Source of the DNA: Eubacteriales bacterium
GTDB taxonomy: Bacteria; Bacillota; Clostridia; Lachnospirales; Lachnospiraceae
Length of the DNA: 42,246 nucleotides
Assembly (NCBI GenBank): GCA_030527665.1
Contig: JAUNAK010000017.1
Span: 1-42,246 of the forward strand
Direction: 5' to 3'
Made by a program: the position numbers and the translations under genes. The notes beneath the pieces were generated by a model. It had not been told where the DNA came from. It worked only from the letters and a program-made list of their open reading frames with translations, and made no database searches. Of this stretch, positions 30,322-38,319 are shown piece after piece. How positions within the stretch are numbered: the stretch's first letter is position 1; every line of letters starts with the position of its first letter.

Positions 30322-32487
30322 TTATTCATAATAATCCACTGCCAGAAGTGCATCACCCGGTTTTACCGGGCCTGCCTGCAGCAGCCGGATATCCATGTTG
30401 TCTTCAACCTCGGTACAGAGGATTGGAGATACGATAGACGGTGCATGTTCCTTAATGAATGCGAGATCCATTTTCAGAAGCGGATCACCTTTTTTGACCT
30501 TCTGTCCGTTTTCAACATAGACCGTAAAACCTTCTCCATTTAATGCAACCGTATCGATTCCCATGTGGAACAGCATGTCCACACCGGTATCTGTCCGGAA
30601 TCCGATGGCATGTTTCGTGTCAAATACAAACACGACCTCTCCGTCCTCCGGGGCATACAGGGTATCCTCCTCCGGTGTAACCGCTGCACCCAGTCCCATC
30701 ATGCCGCCGGCAAAGGCTTCATCGGGACAGGTCGCCAGATCTGCTGCCGTTCCTTTGATCGGGCTTGCGATCGTTACGGTTCTGACGATTTTTTTGCCCG
30801 CAAAAGTATTTTCTTCTGCGTTTTCTTCTGCTGTTCCGCTGTTCTCTGCTGCTTCGGCTGTAAATTCAACGTTCGGCTGCGTTTCCAGATATTCCTCCAG
30901 ATTGTTTTTCACAACGGTTACGCCCGGTCCGTAGATGACCTGAACCGCATTTCCTCTGTGAACGATACCCGAGCATCCGGTTGCTTTCAGAATCGAATCG
31001 TTGACCAGTTCACTCTTACGTACGTTGACACGGAGACGTGTTGCACAGCAGTCAACGTCCGCAATATTTGCTTTTCCACCCAGTCCCTTCATGATCAGAT
31101 CACTCTTCTGATCCTTTTCGGAAACAGCTTCTCCGTCTTTCTTTGCCAGATAGTCTGCCTTGGAGAACAGTTTTGTCTCCACATCGTCATCTTCACGGCC
31201 GGGTGTCTTCAGATCGAATTTTTTGATCAGGAAGCTGAAGATCACATAATACAGTACAAAGTAGATCAGGCCGACAGGAATGATGCGCAGCCAGCTTGTC
31301 TTTTCATTGCCCTGCAGAATACCGAAGAGCAGAAGGTCCAGAAGACCGCCGGAGAATGTCAGTCCAACGGCAATATTCAGGATATGTGCGATCATATATG
31401 CCGCACCGGCAAGCAGAACCTGTACGCCAAAGAGCATCGGAGCTACAAAGAGGAAGGAAAACTCGATCGGTTCTGTGATACCTGTCAGCATACTGGCAAG
31501 TGCTGCTGACAGAAGCAGACCGCCTGCCTGTTTTTTCTTTTCCGGTTTTGCCGTACGGTACATGGCAAGTGCTGCTCCCGGAAGTCCGAAGATCATGAAG
31601 ATAAACTCACCGGAGAAGAAACGGGTCGCATCTGCACTGAAGTGTGCGATGGAACCGGAGTTTGCCAGCTGTGCGAAGAAAATATTCTGGCCGCCTTCAT
31701 AGATCTGGCCGGCAACCTCCATCGTACCGCCGACAGCTGTCTGCCAGAACGGCATATAGAATACATGATGCAGACCAAACGGAATAAGGGATCTCTTGAT
31801 AATTCCGAAGATCAGGGTTCCGAAGTAACCGGAGTTATTTACCAGACCGCCGAGCATATAGATTCCGTTCTGAACGATCGGCCAGATAAAGAAGCACGCA
31901 ATACCTACGAACATGTAAACGATCGTGGAAATGATCGGTACAAAACGGCTGCCGCCGAAGAAGGAAATGGCTGCCGGAAGTTCGATCTTGTAATACTTAT
32001 TGTGAAGAGCTGCTACACCAAGACCAACGATAATACCGCCGAACACGCCCATCTGCAGTGTGTGGATACCTACGATCGAAGTCACCGTTCCGGTGAGACC
32101 TTTTCCGGTCTCCATACCGGCTGCATCGATCCAGCCGTTGATGGAAAGCATTGCCTGGATCGTAATGTTCATTACAAAAAAGGCGATCATAGCAGCAAGT
32201 GCTGCGGTGGATTTTTCTTTTTTCGCCATACCGATCGCAACGCCGACGGCGAAGATCAGCGGCAGGTTATTGAAAATCGCACTGCCGACAGCATTCATGA
32301 TCAGCAGCAGTCCGTTCAAAATGGTTCCTTCTCCCAGGATCCGTTCCAGATGATAGGTTGCAATCGTTGTTTCGTTGGTAAAAGAGCTTCCGAGTCCCAG
32401 CAGCAGTCCGGCTACCGGAAGGATCGCGATCGGAAGCATAAAGCTTCGGCCAACGCGCTGCAGTACAGCAAAAATTTTGTCTTTCAT
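30322..32487 (-). CDS. ptsG: PTS glucose-type permease, fused EIIC-EIIB-EIIA
   Basis: The protein has 721 residues. Residues 1-400 form the EIIC membrane domain (SFMLPIAILPVAGLLLGLG at the start, GVQVLLAGAAYMIAHILNIAVGLTFSGGLLDLLLFGIL near the end). EIIB spans about 450-530, with the phosphorylated C481 in DCCATRLRV. EIIA spans about 570-721, with the two family histidines H626 and H641 in KHAIGFRTDTGVDMLFHMGIDTV; H641 carries the phosphate. Such IICBA proteins import and phosphorylate glucose or a related sugar such as N-acetylglucosamine; the exact sugar is inferred. The leader has a RAT-terminator switch. The gene lies 192 bp ahead of the antiterminator gene on the same strand. Confidence 0.95.
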   Translation of the reverse strand: MKDKIFAVLQRVGRSFMLPIAILPVAGLLLGLGSSFTNETTIATYHLERILGEGTILNGLLLIMNAVGSAIFNNLPLIFAVGVAIGMAKKEKSTAALAAMIAFFVMNITIQAMLSINGWIDAAGMETGKGLTGTVTSIVGIHTLQMGVFGGIIVGLGVAALHNKYYKIELPAAISFFGGSRFVPIISTIVYMFVGIACFFIWPIVQNGIYMLGGLVNNSGYFGTLIFGIIKRSLIPFGLHHVFYMPFWQTAVGGTMEVAGQIYEGGQNIFFAQLANSGSIAHFSADATRFFSGEFIFMIFGLPGAALAMYRTAKPEKKKQAGGLLLSAALASMLTGITEPIEFSFLFVAPMLFGVQVLLAGAAYMIAHILNIAVGLTFSGGLLDLLLFGILQGNEKTSWLRIIPVGLIYFVLYYVIFSFLIKKFDLKTPGREDDDVETKLFSKADYLAKKDGEAVSEKDQKSDLIMKGLGGKANIADVDCCATRLRVNVRKSELVNDSILKATGCSGIVHRGNAVQVIYGPGVTVVKNNLEEYLETQPNVEFTAEAAENSGTAEENAEENTFAGKKIVRTVTIASPIKGTAADLATCPDEAFAGGMMGLGAAVTPEEDTLYAPEDGEVVFVFDTKHAIGFRTDTGVDMLFHMGIDTVALNGEGFTVYVENGQKVKKGDPLLKMDLAFIKEHAPSIVSPILCTEVEDNMDIRLLQAGPVKPGDALLAVDYYE

Positions 32488-32564
32488 GTTCGTCCTCCTT
32501 TAAGAAACATGTGCAGTCTCACAGGAACCTCTGTCTTTGTTTTCTTAGAATCAGCGGTTTTTGT

Positions 32565-32656
32565 GAAACAAAAAAGGCATTCACTGACATATACCTTCAA
32601 AGATACCTCGCTGCTGCGAACTACCTCTTTTTTGAAAATATATGTCAGTGAATGCC
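32565..32656 (-). terminator. Leader terminator of the PTS gene (antitermination target)
   Basis: An 18-bp perfect stem is formed by 32576-32593 and 32639-32656 (GGCATTCACTGACATATA and its complement) across a 45-nt loop, followed on the minus strand by TTTTTTGTTT. The 5' arm (minus strand) starts inside the RAT, so the two structures exclude each other. Confidence 0.92.
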
Positions 32657-32679
32657 TGCTTTACCAGTTACATACTGAT
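32650..32679 (-). promoter_or_regulatory. Ribonucleic antiterminator (RAT) site of the PTS leader
   Basis: The minus strand reads AGTATGTAACTGGTAAAGCAGGC and continues into ATT. It matches the BglG/SacY/LicT RAT consensus around TGTTACTG, the variable loop, and AAGCAGGCA. It overlaps the first bases of the terminator stem. Confidence 0.88.
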
Positions 32680-32819: not shown

Positions 32820-33590
32820 TTACAATCCGGTCTCCCTGTGATACTGCCGTACCCAGTCACGCAGTGTCTCATCGATATCTGCGTTCGGCTCCTTCATGCG
32901 AAGTCCTGCGATCTCTTCTTCCATCTCCGCAAGCACCGCATCGGTCACCTGCAGCTCTGCTGCCCGATGCCGGAAGGCTTCTTCCCCTTCATTCATGCGA
33001 ACACAGTACAGATAATTCTTCAGTGTAGAAGAGCTTTTCAGGATCCTGTAAGCCTCCTTCAGACACTCGGCCGCCTCATCCAGCTGAAACAGCTTGGCAT
33101 AGGCAACTCCCATGTTGTGATAGATAGTTCCCGGGAACTGTGCACCGACCCGCTCCTCCGGCTCTGCCTGCAGAACCTGGCGGTATACAGCGATCGCACG
33201 GGTATACTTCCGATACTGCACAAGCAGATCCGCTTTTCTGCGAAGCCGGAACTGCTCCGACAGGCGAAGGATCTCACGAACCTCATTCCTGAACACCTCT
33301 CTGTCCTCGGCATAGATCCAGTTGCACTCTGCATTGATGGCATAGAGGATCTTTTCCACCGGATTCTCATTGCTGCGAAGCATCAGGATATCTCTTGCCA
33401 GACGGCGCAGCTTCAGATCGGTGTTGATCCATTCGATCAGGCCATCCTCAAAAAAATCCAGGTCGATCAGCGGAAGATTGTAATCCATGAAATAGCATAG
33501 CTCCTCCAGTGACCATATATTGATATCCACATCGGACACGTAGTAGGGATTTTCCGCCCTGACTAACTGACATAAAATTGTTGTACTCAC
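32820..33590 (-). CDS. TPR-containing protein of the DUF5716/DUF5717 operon
   Basis: The protein has 256 residues, soluble and helical. About residues 120-190 form two tetratricopeptide-like repeats (ADLLVQYRKYTRAIAVYRQVLQAEP, TIYHNMGVAYAKLFQLDEAAECLKEAYRILKSS). The first 110 residues are acidic and contain WSLEELCYFMDYNLPLIDLDFFEDGLIEWI, which I do not recognise from other families. The start codon lies three bases after the stop of the DUF5716 gene, so the two are almost certainly cotranslated. TPRs usually hold protein complexes together; here the likely partners are the two proteins encoded upstream. Function unknown. Confidence 0.85.
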   Translation of the reverse strand: MSTTILCQLVRAENPYYVSDVDINIWSLEELCYFMDYNLPLIDLDFFEDGLIEWINTDLKLRRLARDILMLRSNENPVEKILYAINAECNWIYAEDREVFRNEVREILRLSEQFRLRRKADLLVQYRKYTRAIAVYRQVLQAEPEERVGAQFPGTIYHNMGVAYAKLFQLDEAAECLKEAYRILKSSSTLKNYLYCVRMNEGEEAFRHRAAELQVTDAVLAEMEEEIAGLRMKEPNADIDETLRDWVRQYHRETGL

Positions 33591-33593
33591 CGA

Positions 33594-34754
33594 TCAGCCC
33601 TCCAGTATTTCCCGCCAGATCTGTCCGGAAGCCGGGAACAGGTCACCAAAGCCCAGATCCTCCGCTTCAACCACACAGCGTGTCGGCGATTCAAACTCCA
33701 GATGCAGACGGATCCTCGTTGTTCGATCCGGCCGCTCCGGCATCCCCGGAAGTTCCATACGCAGAACATTCTGCTTTTTCGAGTCCATGGCACTGACAAC
33801 AAACTCCAGAGCCGCTTCGTCATCCAGCAGGCATTCCACTGTTTTTTCCGTATCATACCAGTTCACACCGGCAGAGATCAGCGGATAATAGGTCTCATTG
33901 CCCTGCACGATCATCTGCATGCCGATGTTGTTTCGCACCAGATCATCTCCCAGATAGAGATAGTCTCCCAGACGGCGCTCCAGCACCCGCTCTCTTGCTG
34001 CATAGCAGGCTCCGCGGGCAAACAGGTTGTCTACCATGAATACCTTACGGCCGCCCTTGCAAAGCAGCGGAACCGAGCGCTTGCCCCAGCTTCCGGAGAA
34101 GGTCTCGCCCATTATAAAGATACAGGAATAGATATTCTGGCGCAGCGACGCATTGATCATATTGCAGAACTGCTCATCCCAGAGGCTCTTATCCTCCTTC
34201 AGCGTAATGGAGACGCCTTCCGATACCATACAGGTGATCGGGCGGGTCTGCTGATTCATGGTCAGGGAATAGAAGGAGACCTGACGGTCATCAAACCGGA
34301 AAAATCCGACATTTCGATTCCAGTATTCTTTTTTCTGATACAGGGTATGGTAGTAAAAACTTTCCTTATAATCCTGCAGAAAACCACGTCCGCTCTCGAT
34401 TCCAAGATCCTCGTATACGAAACGGATCAGCTCCACCAGATGGCGGTCCAGCTTCGGCACCGTCACCGTGATTCCCTCGATCTGTAACTCCGGATCGGTG
34501 ATCCCCTGATCCTCCAGTGTCTGGCGCAGGATATCGGAAGCCTTCTGCTCCATATCCAGGATCATATCCACATCCGTATCTTCCTCCGGCAGTTCGGACT
34601 GTACCTCCAGCTCATCCAGAATATCCTGCAGGGATACGCCTTCCACACTGTCCTTCATGGAGGCCACTACCGTATTCTCCGTTTCCGTATCATAATAGCA
34701 GACCTGCGGGTCTTCTTTGTTCAGGTCTACACCGATTATCAGATTACGATTCAT
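33594..34754 (-). CDS. DUF5716 family protein with a degenerate Hsp70/actin-like layout
   Basis: The protein has 386 residues. I recognise it as DUF5716, a family of unknown function. Its text follows the order of Hsp70/actin-type ATPases: NLIIGVDLNKEDPQVCYYD (residues 4-22) resembles the first phosphate loop, RGFLQDYKESFYYHTLYQK (123-141) the connecting helix, VGFFRFDDRQVSFYSL (149-164) the second phosphate loop, and CIFIMGETFSGSWGKR to LFARGACYAA (211-252) the adenosine region. The glycine-rich GGGT of the second loop is absent, so ATP hydrolysis is doubtful. The last 50 residues look like a beta-rich tail. The fold comparison is my reading of motif order, not a proven homology. It lies 13 bp after the DUF5717 gene. 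Confidence 0.85.
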   Translation of the reverse strand: MNRNLIIGVDLNKEDPQVCYYDTETENTVVASMKDSVEGVSLQDILDELEVQSELPEEDTDVDMILDMEQKASDILRQTLEDQGITDPELQIEGITVTVPKLDRHLVELIRFVYEDLGIESGRGFLQDYKESFYYHTLYQKKEYWNRNVGFFRFDDRQVSFYSLTMNQQTRPITCMVSEGVSITLKEDKSLWDEQFCNMINASLRQNIYSCIFIMGETFSGSWGKRSVPLLCKGGRKVFMVDNLFARGACYAARERVLERRLGDYLYLGDDLVRNNIGMQMIVQGNETYYPLISAGVNWYDTEKTVECLLDDEAALEFVVSAMDSKKQNVLRMELPGMPERPDRTTRIRLHLEFESPTRCVVEAEDLGFGDLFPASGQIWREILEG

Positions 34755-34767
34755 GCTGCCTCCTTTC

Positions 34768-37700
34768 TCAATCCATCAGCTTCAGGAATTCATCTACGAA
34801 TGCTTCCTGAGAACGATACTGATCCATGGTCTGCTGCAGGGTCAGGCTGTCATTGTTGTCTCTTGCCTCCAGCATCCGGTTCAGCAGACGGAACTTGGTA
34901 TTTCCGGAGGTATCCATATCACTTAATGAGATTTCATAGCAGTCGGTATTTTCGATCTTGCCGTTGGTCATTACGCTCAGATAATAGGTAAGGGTCTCCC
35001 CGTAAAACAGCAGGAATTCTCTTACAAAAATACCCTTGTACACATTACGTACCGGCTCACTGATCCAGGCACCGGTCTGTCCGTCCAGTTCGGTCAGCCG
35101 GTAATGAATAACTACACGGCATTCCGGATCGTACTGTTCCTGGATGAAGATCTTATCCTCGATCTGGTATGCCTGCAACAGTTCTTTCGGCAGCTTGCCG
35201 TAGAATTCGAACCGCAGTCCTCTCTCATCCATTTCCTTCAGAAGGACGCGGCAAAGCTCTGTCTGCTTCTGATCCAGTGTTCCGATCTGTGCATAATATT
35301 TCAGAAGAGCCAGCTTGCAGATGGTCTTGTCCAACTCTTCTCTGTCCATGGCTTCTTCCATCATGGAGAAGATCTGTCCGGATGTCTGACGGTTTCCAAG
35401 GAAATAATGATCCGCCAGATATGCCAGGAATTCGGCACATACCTCCGGCTCTCCCTCATGATCCATATAGCTTCTGAGAACCTCCGTCTCCTGATCCGGG
35501 AACTGATGGGTACGCATGGACTGCAGAAGGATCTTTTTCTCCAGAACCGTCTGATCCAGCCGTTTGTCGGTCAGACTCTTCCACAGACGGCAGAGATTTT
35601 TGACCGATCCTTCATAACGATCACGCAGATAGACCAGCAGTACATCTTCACGGCAGCCGTTCTCATACACATTCCATGCGAAGCAGGTAAAATCCTCTTC
35701 CTCGATATGCTTCTCATCCAGGATCAGACGGCCTGCCAGCAGCTGCAGCTGCTCCTGCCGGATCTCTTCATAGCCGTAACCGGAGATCACATGCCAGGCA
35801 TCCTCATATCTTCCCTCGCGGATCAGAATGTGGGTGGTACCGATCCTGTCCGCTCTTGCATATTCATCCACTTCCTCGTCCGGAAGGGCATCCGGCAGCA
35901 TCCTGTCATCCGGATGGGCCAGATCGTAATCCAGCAGTTTGCGCCGGATCATATCCCGATATTCATCAGTAAATGCCGTATTGCGCACCGCTGCCCGGTA
36001 CCAGTTGATATTGCGGCTGCTGATCTCCATCTGGAAGGCCTTGTCATGGCACATATACAGGGTCAGTCCCGGATGATTGATGCCGAAATCCATGCAGGCT
36101 CTTGCAAAATCCTTCGGATCCAGCAGATTCTGCTTCGTAAACGGTACAGTCACGGCAAAACGGCGGCGATTGACATCCTCGAACAGAATCGAGGAATCCT
36201 CGGAATATACCCGCGGATATGCCACGCCTTCGATCACCAGTGCCTCTTCTTCTCTTTCGATATGACTGTGGGATACGATCACCTTGCGTATCCCCTTGAC
36301 CGGAACCGTCACCTTCCGTGCAAAAATAACATTGGCCAGCTTCTCCGCCATTTCGGCAGATTCCGGTTTCCGGAAATACTCGGCATACAGCACGGCATAG
36401 TTCTCATCGATCTTGCCTCTCTGCAGAGATGACAGGGCAAAATCACGCATATAACGGGAGTAGTTCAGATAACCGGTCTCATCCGCATCCTTGTGCAGGA
36501 TCACGCTGGCATACAGCAGCGCTTTTTTCCGATCCTCCAGCATGTTGTTGGTTGCAAAATACATGCGGACCGGAAGCGGGATCTCCTCCGAAGCCGGACG
36601 GCTGTAGGTCTCCATATAATATTCGTAGAGGCGGGTAACACGGAGGTCTCTCTCCACCGCCTTTTCATACCACTCAAAGCAGGCCCGACGATTCGGATTT
36701 CCCTTGATCAGCAGCTTGCAGATCGCCTCCAGAATATCGTCGTTGGGATATTTGCGATAGCCGACGGTCAGTACACGGAAGACCGACGGGCTGAAGTTTT
36801 TCTCATTGGAAGACAAAAATGCGGCTCTCTGCAGAAGTCCCTCGGAAATATAGCCCTGTTTCTGTCCGAAGTTCAGAACACGAAGCATGAACGGGGACAG
36901 TCTGCGCAGCAGTGCCTCCTCCTTTGCCAGCAGCTTCCATGCATCCAGATACAGGAACGGACTGCTGCATCCGGCACGGAAGCAGTCCTCATACTCCTCC
37001 ATCAAATCTGCGGAAGTCAGCATATCGGTGCCTTCCTCCTTGTGGATCAGGTGCAGCAGCAGATAGCTGTTCGGATGACGCATGAAATATTTGCGAAGCC
37101 GGGGCAGAATATTGGTCTGTTCCTGGGGAAGAAGTCCCACCGTCTTGGCAATACTCAGATAGACCGCCTTCTGCTCGGCCGTCTGGAACGCAAGAATTCC
37201 GTCCTTAAACGGCCACAGGATCTCCATGGTACGGGAATAATCCTCTGCCGCACAGGTCAGATATGCCTGGTACAGTGTCGCCCATACATCCGACGGATTC
37301 TCCTGCAGCATCTCCTGCACGGTCATGGAAGAAGATTCCTGCCAGCCCCGATAATCCAGAATATGCAGCTGCAGATTCAGATAGTCCCGCATCAGCCAGG
37401 CAACGCGGCGGTTTCTGGCGGTGGAAGGACGAAGCATCGCAGCGTCCGAGGCGGAAGCCTCTACCGTGAATTCCAGTGTCTGATGTACGCTTCGAATAAG
37501 GATCTTTCCATAGGAGCGGCCGGTGCCGAGCATCTCCCGGCGTACGACATATTCCAGACCGTAGACCTTTCCGATAAAGTCTTCGGAGGTGATGACCTTT
37601 TTCTCCACTTCCAGGAAATCGCCGATCACCTCTACCTCCAGACGGATGTAGCCCCAGGTATTTTTGTAGATATACAGGGTATCCTTCTGGGATACATCCA

Positions 37701-38319
37701 GATGATAGGCCGCCTTCTCCTGCTTATCCAGAGAGATCTCGATGGGTGCCTTTTTGCCGCAGGCAATCAGAAACTCCTCCAGATGCTGGTAGGTGACCGG
37801 ATTTCTGGACATGCCCTTATACAGAGACAGATACCGGCGGTTGCTGCCATTCAGTATCCCTGTGAATCCCGGACTTGTAAACAGACGGAATCCCTCCCGG
37901 ATCTCCCGCATGCACAATCTGGAAAAATCATCCAGTGTATGCACCTCTTTGTGCAGACCATCCTCCGGCAGCTCCGTTACTTCGATCTGTACCGGAACGG
38001 AGATCTCCGACAGATTGCTGCTGATCAGAATGGATCCTTCTACCTTTTTGCCCGCACGAAGTCCTTTTACGTCCACACCGAAAAGTACCTCACAGGAAGT
38101 TCCGGAAACCTCACTGACTGCCGGAACAATCCGGTAGCTATCGGACATGATCTGTGCACGCACATGACTTCCGTCACTTGCCTTGATCGTAAAAGAAGCT
38201 CTTTTCTGTGCCCCTTCCTGTACGCGGAAGGAAAACTCCGGCTGTGATACGATCAGTTTCGGAAGATCATATACAAAACCTGCTTCTGCTGTTATCTCTT
38301 GTTTGCTCAATATATTCAC
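34768..38319 (-). CDS. DUF5717 family giant protein
   Basis: The protein has 1183 residues with no signal peptide or membrane segment. Residues 20-115 and about 200-290 are beta-rich and Ig-like (FSFRVQEGAQKRASFTIKASDGSHVRAQI, VSGTSCEVLFGVDVKGLRAGKKVEGSILIS). From about residue 330 to 950 there are long runs of helical repeat of TPR/HEAT character (for example YASVILHKDADETGYLNYSRYMRDFAL). The C-terminus is again mixed beta. I know the family as DUF5717 of Lachnospiraceae, with no assigned function. The start is either GTG at 38319 or TTG at 38310; AGGGTG is better placed for the TTG. First gene of a three-gene operon with DUF5716 and the TPR protein, expressed from the symmetric promoter at 38364-38427. 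Confidence 0.85.
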   Translation of the reverse strand: MNILSKQEITAEAGFVYDLPKLIVSQPEFSFRVQEGAQKRASFTIKASDGSHVRAQIMSDSYRIVPAVSEVSGTSCEVLFGVDVKGLRAGKKVEGSILISSNLSEISVPVQIEVTELPEDGLHKEVHTLDDFSRLCMREIREGFRLFTSPGFTGILNGSNRRYLSLYKGMSRNPVTYQHLEEFLIACGKKAPIEISLDKQEKAAYHLDVSQKDTLYIYKNTWGYIRLEVEVIGDFLEVEKKVITSEDFIGKVYGLEYVVRREMLGTGRSYGKILIRSVHQTLEFTVEASASDAAMLRPSTARNRRVAWLMRDYLNLQLHILDYRGWQESSSMTVQEMLQENPSDVWATLYQAYLTCAAEDYSRTMEILWPFKDGILAFQTAEQKAVYLSIAKTVGLLPQEQTNILPRLRKYFMRHPNSYLLLHLIHKEEGTDMLTSADLMEEYEDCFRAGCSSPFLYLDAWKLLAKEEALLRRLSPFMLRVLNFGQKQGYISEGLLQRAAFLSSNEKNFSPSVFRVLTVGYRKYPNDDILEAICKLLIKGNPNRRACFEWYEKAVERDLRVTRLYEYYMETYSRPASEEIPLPVRMYFATNNMLEDRKKALLYASVILHKDADETGYLNYSRYMRDFALSSLQRGKIDENYAVLYAEYFRKPESAEMAEKLANVIFARKVTVPVKGIRKVIVSHSHIEREEEALVIEGVAYPRVYSEDSSILFEDVNRRRFAVTVPFTKQNLLDPKDFARACMDFGINHPGLTLYMCHDKAFQMEISSRNINWYRAAVRNTAFTDEYRDMIRRKLLDYDLAHPDDRMLPDALPDEEVDEYARADRIGTTHILIREGRYEDAWHVISGYGYEEIRQEQLQLLAGRLILDEKHIEEEDFTCFAWNVYENGCREDVLLVYLRDRYEGSVKNLCRLWKSLTDKRLDQTVLEKKILLQSMRTHQFPDQETEVLRSYMDHEGEPEVCAEFLAYLADHYFLGNRQTSGQIFSMMEEAMDREELDKTICKLALLKYYAQIGTLDQKQTELCRVLLKEMDERGLRFEFYGKLPKELLQAYQIEDKIFIQEQYDPECRVVIHYRLTELDGQTGAWISEPVRNVYKGIFVREFLLFYGETLTYYLSVMTNGKIENTDCYEISLSDMDTSGNTKFRLLNRMLEARDNNDSLTLQQTMDQYRSQEAFVDEFLKLMD

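Follow-up and report, generated by a model that had tools for sequence, protein, structure and literature searches.

The question raised by the locus described here is what a conserved three-gene operon does in a bacterium of the family Lachnospiraceae, and from what kind of ancestor it was derived. The operon lies on the minus strand of contig JAUNAK010000017.1 (assembly GCA_030527665.1, Eubacteriales bacterium), the 42,246 nucleotides of which are referred to as the window. It encodes a DUF5717 protein of 1183 residues (first gene, GTG start, 34768-38319), a DUF5716 protein of 386 residues (ATG start, 33594-34754) and, as its last gene, a tetratricopeptide repeat (TPR) protein of 256 residues (GTG start, 32820-33590), with spacers of 13 bp and 3 bp between successive genes. 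The window proteins are clear members of the Pfam families DUF5716 and DUF5717, for which Pfam states no function, and no description of the function of the unit was found in the open-licence literature searched. A reading made from the sequence only, without database searches, had delimited the same three genes and the same spacers, each of which was confirmed exactly, and had suggested a group-specific assembly or chaperone-like machine comprising a giant scaffold, a switch-like pseudo-ATPase and a TPR adaptor. The analysis presented here indicates that the trio is probably a nucleotide-independent core left over from a machine for assembly or chaperoning built on Hsp70, and that the ancestral operon persists in many genomes of sister families. 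The evolutionary identity of the trio as a reduced Hsp70 machine can be stated with high confidence, whereas the holding or scaffolding mechanism proposed for it below is tentative, and is put forward at somewhat less than even confidence. Throughout, 'own family' denotes the family of the window's genome, and 'sister families' the other families of the same order.

DUF5716 as a degenerate Hsp70

The DUF5716 protein matches Pfam DUF5716_C with an E value of 4e-100, and the Hsp70 model PF00012 returns no match to the window sequence at E values up to 1. Kinship with Hsp70 is apparent instead from the predicted structure, which has the two-lobed actin-like fold of an Hsp70 nucleotide-binding domain (NBD), and the best fold matches of which are DnaK, Hsc70, BiP, Sse1 and Ssz1. 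Residues 4-386 of the model align to residues 2-503 of the DnaK chain in the fold search, with 351 of the 386 residues aligned, and a DUF5716 profile run against sequences from the Protein Data Bank (PDB) finds DnaK, albeit weakly (whole-sequence E value of 9e-4), in both the NBD and the beta subdomain of the substrate-binding domain (SBD-beta). Alignment places the NBD-like part at residues ~1-262 (33969-34754, minus strand); alignment, profile and fold search together place an SBD-beta-like part, without the alpha-helical lid, at residues ~263-386 (33597-33968, minus strand).

The residues corresponding to K70, E171 and T199 of DnaK are L, Y and Q, respectively, in the window protein. Among 78 DUF5716 proteins of the own family the lysine and the glutamate are each kept in 0/78 and the threonine in 8/78. 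The stretch that bears subdomain IIB comprises 57 residues, compared with 137 in the DnaK of the same genome; across the 78 proteins it ranges from 54 to 94 residues (median 63, as against 138-174 in the other four groups). The DLG motif of SBD-beta is followed by a median of 21 residues in DUF5716 and 161 in DnaK, indicating that the lid is absent. As judged from these alignments, DUF5716 is a degenerate Hsp70 from which the catalytic residues, most of IIB and the lid have gone. The order of Hsp70/actin motifs with a lost GGGT loop, which the sequence-only reading had recognised, is thus borne out by alignment and fold search, and the predicted two-lobed fold agrees with it. Its description of the protein as switch-like is not supported: an ATP switch is improbable, given that K70 and E171 are kept in none of the 78 proteins and that only about half remains of the stretch bearing IIB, the subdomain that shuts over the nucleotide.

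The Hsp70 operon of sister families

Loci in sister families were identified with a profile of the DUF5717 C-terminal region, and 50 of the 51 found were examined (G566 was left out), many of them being cut by the ends of contigs or of the stretches retrieved. Labelled with our own profiles, the genes follow the order (Q)-N-DUF5717-Hsp70-A-GrpE protein-P-Hsp70-B-Hsp70-VWA-T, with median intergenic gaps of -4 to 36 bp. Here N is the immunoglobulin (Ig)-like part of DUF5717, encoded by a separate gene in most sister loci and fused in some, P is a pseudo-Hsp70 and the orthologue of DUF5716, T is a TPR protein, and Q is a coiled-coil protein that heads some of the operons. Hsp70-A was called in 40 of the 50 loci, the GrpE protein in 36, P in 35, Hsp70-B in 29, the VWA-type protein in 26, Q in 17 and T in 12, while extended stretches add T in five more.

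The Hsp70s encoded in these operons appear catalytically intact. In loci L078 and L088 the three proteins match Pfam HSP70 with E values of 2e-67, 8.5e-61 and 1.5e-91, the last of these also carrying a VWA domain, and the GrpE match is at 2.6e-11. The full set of K70, E171 and T199 is present in 39/39 Hsp70-A, 28/28 Hsp70-B and 24/26 Hsp70-VWA proteins, and in 0/34 of the sister P proteins, among which the lysine is kept in none, the glutamate in four and the threonine in none. Hsp70-A and Hsp70-B are lidless as well, since they end soon after SBD-beta. PF00012 was matched in the P proteins of L078 and L082; that of L078 matches both HSP70 (5e-11) and DUF5716_C (2e-19), and is therefore intermediate between the two families. 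That one operon encodes a GrpE protein alongside three Hsp70s with their catalytic residues gives substance to the kinship with chaperone machines that had been proposed from the sequence.

The N and DUF5717 genes appear to be fused (1179-1329 residues) in L069, L187, L189, L194, L192 and L214; since several sister genomes thus appear fused too, the fusion may have arisen more than once. Loci L081, L203, L205 and L207 hold extra unlabelled genes, many of 90-250 codons, between members of the Hsp70 operon; one of those in L081 is related to a gene of L090, and resembled a Uma2-type nuclease by eye only.

Orthology of the trio and probable loss of the ATPases

The TPR protein, in which repeats had been noticed from the sequence, matches Pfam TPR_2 at 1e-8, and a profile of its family matches five sister T proteins at 3e-19 to 9e-32. 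A profile restricted to the N-terminal 100 residues, a non-TPR domain common to T proteins (residues ~1-100, 33291-33590, minus strand), finds 17 of 19 sister T-labelled proteins at 9e-14 to 1e-5, and its best match to any other sister protein is at an E value of only 0.3. The two that it misses are L213_4 and L090_13, the latter of which is encoded away from the operon and seems to bear the wrong label. By these profiles the TPR protein of the window is the orthologue of T, the last gene of the sister Hsp70 operon. Similarly, on sequence comparison, DUF5717 corresponds to N plus the sister DUF5717 and DUF5716 to P, the trio thereby representing the genes at the start, in the middle and at the end of the longer operon.

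In a tree of P and DUF5716 proteins the 14 rows of the own family form one group (100/97), to which the P protein of family f125 is joined (100/99); the DUF5717 tree gives the same grouping with f125 (SH-aLRT 99, no bootstrap). In f125 the locus still includes Hsp70-A, GrpE, P and Hsp70-B. A shared locus is supported by the aminotransferase gene beside the window operon, relatives of which (41-50% identity) adjoin six sister loci. No gene for Hsp70-A, the GrpE protein, Hsp70-B or Hsp70-VWA lies among or next to the window genes, and the genome itself, which is 94% complete, has one Hsp70 above the cut-off, namely DnaK, plus a partial match below threshold. When Hsp70-A was searched for in 150 own-family genomes, 145 gave a match, but among the matches listed none exceeds 43% identity and none is an orthologue; the strongest (E value 2.6e-52, 37% identity) is as expected of DnaK-type proteins. 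Hsp70-A was found at 54-77% identity in 13 of 14 sister genomes, the source genome of the query being excluded. The simplest reading of these sequence data is that the Hsp70 and GrpE genes were lost on the branch leading to the own family.

Ten sister loci are without a called Hsp70-A. In L196 the locus reaches a contig edge, and in L214 the gene was missed by the gene caller but is present, at 66% identity. In L082 (genome G559) the locus keeps only N, DUF5717 and P, and the genome offers just a DnaK-type match to Hsp70-A, at 34%. The P protein of this genome groups with another f136 row (100/99), and two other f136 genomes (L078 and L199) keep most of the operon; G559 therefore represents, by tree position and gene content, a second, independent reduction to scaffold and pseudo-Hsp70.

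Several observations weigh against this account of descent and loss. The remaining seven loci, all of f126 (L079, L202, L206, L208, L209, L210 and L212), have DUF5717 without labelled Hsp70 genes, while Hsp70-A is encoded elsewhere in the same genomes at 74-77% identity, from which it follows that the parts of the machine need not be co-transcribed. The P protein of the f125 locus (L068) matches DUF5716_C at 3e-74 and shows no match to HSP70 at E values up to 0.1; in the same locus the VWA-type gene is split over two reading frames and the T gene falls outside the stretch fetched. Since the trees are without an independent outgroup, the case for 'loss' is one of parsimony and gene order. The sister genomes in the Hsp70-A search numbered 15, ten of them from the single family f126, and the own-family search used Hsp70-A and the best matches only, such that Hsp70-B, GrpE or other relatives may remain. 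Finally, further Hsp70s stand behind the trio in one own-family locus (L108, 12057-20928), where the trio is followed by three Hsp70s, a 442-residue protein, an Hsp70-like protein and a 342-residue coiled coil; in the tree three of the four L108 Hsp70s form their own clade apart from A, B and VWA, on long branches.

Distribution of the trio

DUF5716 was found in 244 of 250 own-family genomes (199 of the 202 of good quality) and DUF5717_N in 245 (200 of the 202), with G327, G389 and G522 being without both. All but five of the 244 genomes have a single DUF5716 match, two being present in G427, G435, G502, G523 and G545. Named carriers include Blautia wexlerae, Kineothrix alysoides and Butyrivibrio proteoclasticus, all of them Lachnospiraceae, which points to this as the own family. 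In a sample of the phylum each of the two was found in 4/299 genomes, all of the own family, and in 0/295 of the others. Across the order the DUF5717 C-terminal profile finds 62 of 116 genomes, 11 of them from the own family and 51 from other families, and across the class the profile of the sister form finds 12 of 245, comprising nine own-family genomes and three weak partial matches. The latter (f150 and f157, E values of 1e-4 to 1e-7) were considered as a sign of wider spread in the class and dismissed, as they resemble generic repeats.

The arrangement of the genes is equally well conserved. Among 80 named loci DUF5716 was called in 78, with DUF5717 directly upstream in 77 of the 78 and a TPR gene directly downstream in 68; three of the other ten reach the end of the stretch without a further gene. 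One of the 80 records is titled Oscillospiraceae (L170, a metagenome-assembled genome) and some others are given just as Clostridia or Eubacteriales. The sequence-only view of a unit special to this bacterial group, with its three genes kept together, therefore accords both with the near-universal presence in the own family and with the survey of gene order. Of the two outcomes that it had named as refuting, a model of DUF5716 without a two-lobed fold and homologues usually apart from the other two genes, neither was observed. Members of the Lachnospiraceae are among the abundant gut bacteria, and since the trio occurs in ~98% of the sampled genomes of the family and was not found outside the order in the samples taken, it is probably important to their lifestyle.

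Domain structure of the DUF5717 protein

The DUF5717 protein matches DUF5717_N (PF18984, E value 5e-213) and the DUF5717 C-terminal family (PF18983, 6e-79), and an AlphaFold2 model was obtained with a pLDDT of 87.2 and a pTM of 0.62. The model bears out the Ig-like ends and long helical repeats anticipated from the sequence. Its predicted parts, all on the minus strand, begin with two PapD/ASH-like Ig domains at residues ~22-115 (37975-38256) and ~195-288 (37456-37737). These are followed by a first helical repeat stretch at ~293-662 (36334-37443; model secondary structure and Foldseek), a beta-rich insert at ~667-731 (36127-36321), a second helical repeat stretch at ~735-1051 (35167-36117) and a C-terminal beta-sandwich at ~1057-1131 (34927-35151). 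Foldseek matches of the first helical stretch are chains from the Ski2-3-8, Paf1/Ctr9 and Naa15 complexes.

An own-family genome, G495 (L087), has a DUF5717 protein of 853 residues without the N-terminal Ig part. The 385-codon open reading frame preceding it was considered as a split N part, but is actually an S-adenosylmethionine synthetase, and a basal position for this locus was rejected because the trees give no such placement.

Proposed function and alternative explanations

The ancestral operon would have encoded a scaffold of Ig domains and helical repeats, three lidless, catalytically intact Hsp70s (one of them VWA-ended), a GrpE-tailed exchange factor, a pseudo-Hsp70 and a TPR protein. 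In the lineage of the window the dedicated Hsp70s and the GrpE protein would have been lost from the operon, and the scaffold, DUF5716 and the TPR protein kept as a unit. The three proteins may form one complex with DUF5717 as its frame, in which DUF5716 would serve as a fixed, ATP-free docking or holding subunit by means of SBD-beta and the remaining surfaces of the NBD, and the TPR protein might recruit clients or the general DnaK. Such an assembly would bind client proteins without ATP, where formerly it would have been driven by dedicated Hsp70s recharged by GrpE. That the near-universal core in the family is ATP-free, with the pseudo-Hsp70 as a fixed client-binding subunit on the giant scaffold, while the full machine of sister families is still run by ATP, is a possibility that we favour only tentatively. 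If this is true, the trio would be a remarkable example of chaperone machinery pared down to its pseudo-enzyme. In any event, descent from an Hsp70-GrpE system gives the trio a testable biochemistry, and the ATP-driven form can be studied in parallel in sister families.

The trio might instead be a co-chaperone of the general DnaK, which would have replaced the lost Hsp70s, with DUF5716 acting as a fixed partner, as the yeast pseudo-Hsp70 Ssz1 does, and either bringing clients or stimulating DnaK. This is judged unlikely, if worth serious attention: the complex of Ssz1 includes the J-protein Zuo1, whereas among the scanned genes of the sister operons Pfam found none with a J-domain (a search that did not extend to unlinked partners), and the fold matches of DUF5716 to Ssz1 tie with those to ordinary Hsp70s, so that the function of Ssz1 is not singled out. 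Alternatively, the trio could be a dedicated assembly factor at the membrane, serving perhaps a secretion or envelope complex and tethered there by a membrane protein with a coiled coil. A coiled-coil protein of ~400 residues was found in 53 of the 120 own-family genomes searched (one match being weak), and its gene directly follows the TPR gene in 31 of 33 named loci, the other two being without a called TPR gene. Three examples of it have two membrane-like segments each by hydropathy, as the Q coiled coils that begin the operon in 17 of 50 sister loci have such segments in 17/17. Set against this, hydropathy finds no membrane-like segment in any of the three window proteins, and the ~400-residue family has no match in the window's genome and is lacking in 67 of the 120, from which it is concluded that it is not a required part. 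Anchoring as the basis of the function is thus considered improbable, although the hydrophobic segments of the coiled-coil partner and of the Q proteins do make a location in the vicinity of the membrane possible, and the machine may work there in many species. A relationship of Q to MotA, TolQ or ZorA was also entertained and rejected: the PADLOC matches of one Q protein fall in its coiled-coil tail, and the Pfam and PDB profiles matched are mostly coiled coil.

A third possibility, membership in a system of anti-phage defence or conflict that resembles the GAP1-N2 neighbourhoods of Kaur et al. (2020; PMC7159879), is suggested by the ingredients of those neighbourhoods. According to that article, these contain HSP70, GrpE and TPR-linked proteins, occur with FNIII/TPR proteins in Firmicutes and Actinobacteria, and in some cases include a second HSP70 without the peptide-binding domain; the sister operon is composed along comparable lines, with VWA in addition. 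Presence in nearly every good-quality genome of the family is, however, unlike the patchy occurrence of defence systems, and in none of the nine genes scanned in the L078 and L088 operons does Pfam find a GTPase domain. No Pfam match to a GAP1 domain was seen in the operon genes scanned, the presence of that model in the library being unchecked. PADLOC gives no match for the window trio, and four of seven other proteins scanned have weak matches only (best E value 1.5e-5), on coiled-coil or Hsp70 stretches. Given the near-universal presence and the lack of a PADLOC match for the trio, a defence role is regarded as very improbable. The core of a reduced Hsp70 machine is the preferred explanation.

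Surroundings of the operon in the window

By eye, the downstream neighbour of the operon is a phosphotransferase system (PTS) transporter, ~330 bp away, and the upstream neighbour is the divergent aminotransferase gene; the trio therefore stands alone. The ribosome-binding site of the DUF5716 gene is good, also by eye. Heat-shock control through CIRCE was considered and rejected, no site being present across the window with up to three mismatches allowed. Sigma-70-like sites (10, compared with 6.1 expected by chance) and terminator-like sites (6, compared with 3.7) are not the subject of any claim, and an Rfam scan of the window returned no matches. A long inverted repeat followed by a run of T at 32561-32660, just upstream of the PTS gene (30322-32487, minus strand), resembles by eye the terminator/antiterminator switch of a PTS operon, though Rfam has no match to it.

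Comparison with known systems

As far as the open-licence literature searched extends, the Hsp70 ancestry of DUF5716 and the ancestral operon are new; the main text of an article on DnaK duplication (PMC11019930) contains no word starting 'Lachnospir'. The neighbourhoods of Kaur et al. (2020; PMC7159879) are centred on GTPases; one of their themes combines HSP70 and GrpE with FNIII proteins that are coupled to TPRs or DnaJ, and VWA proteins belong to another, which recalls the sister operon, but the latter has no GTPase among the genes scanned, and the trio is nearly universal in one family. In CoCoNuT systems (PMC11090510), CnuD carries degenerate ATPase motifs on Hsp70-like NBD/SBD units, as DUF5716 does, but is tied to McrBC-type GTPases and nucleases, none of which was seen among the sister operon genes scanned.

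Parallels, as functional analogies only, are offered by proteins that are themselves among the best fold matches of DUF5716. Ssz1, which belongs to the ribosome-associated complex, and Sse1 (Hsp110) are atypical members of the Hsp70 family, each serving as a partner to further Hsp70s. The former is defined as a pseudo-Hsp70 without a lid, a description that DUF5716 shares, and differs from it in its association with a J-domain, none having been found with the sister operon genes; an exchange role like that of Hsp110 is unlikely for DUF5716 because IIB is cut down. With respect to DnaK and the Hsp70 family at large (PF00012), DUF5716 is set apart by the loss of the catalytic residues, most of IIB, the lid and any match to the family model, but retains a two-lobed actin-like NBD followed by SBD-beta, and the intermediate protein of the sister families matches both.

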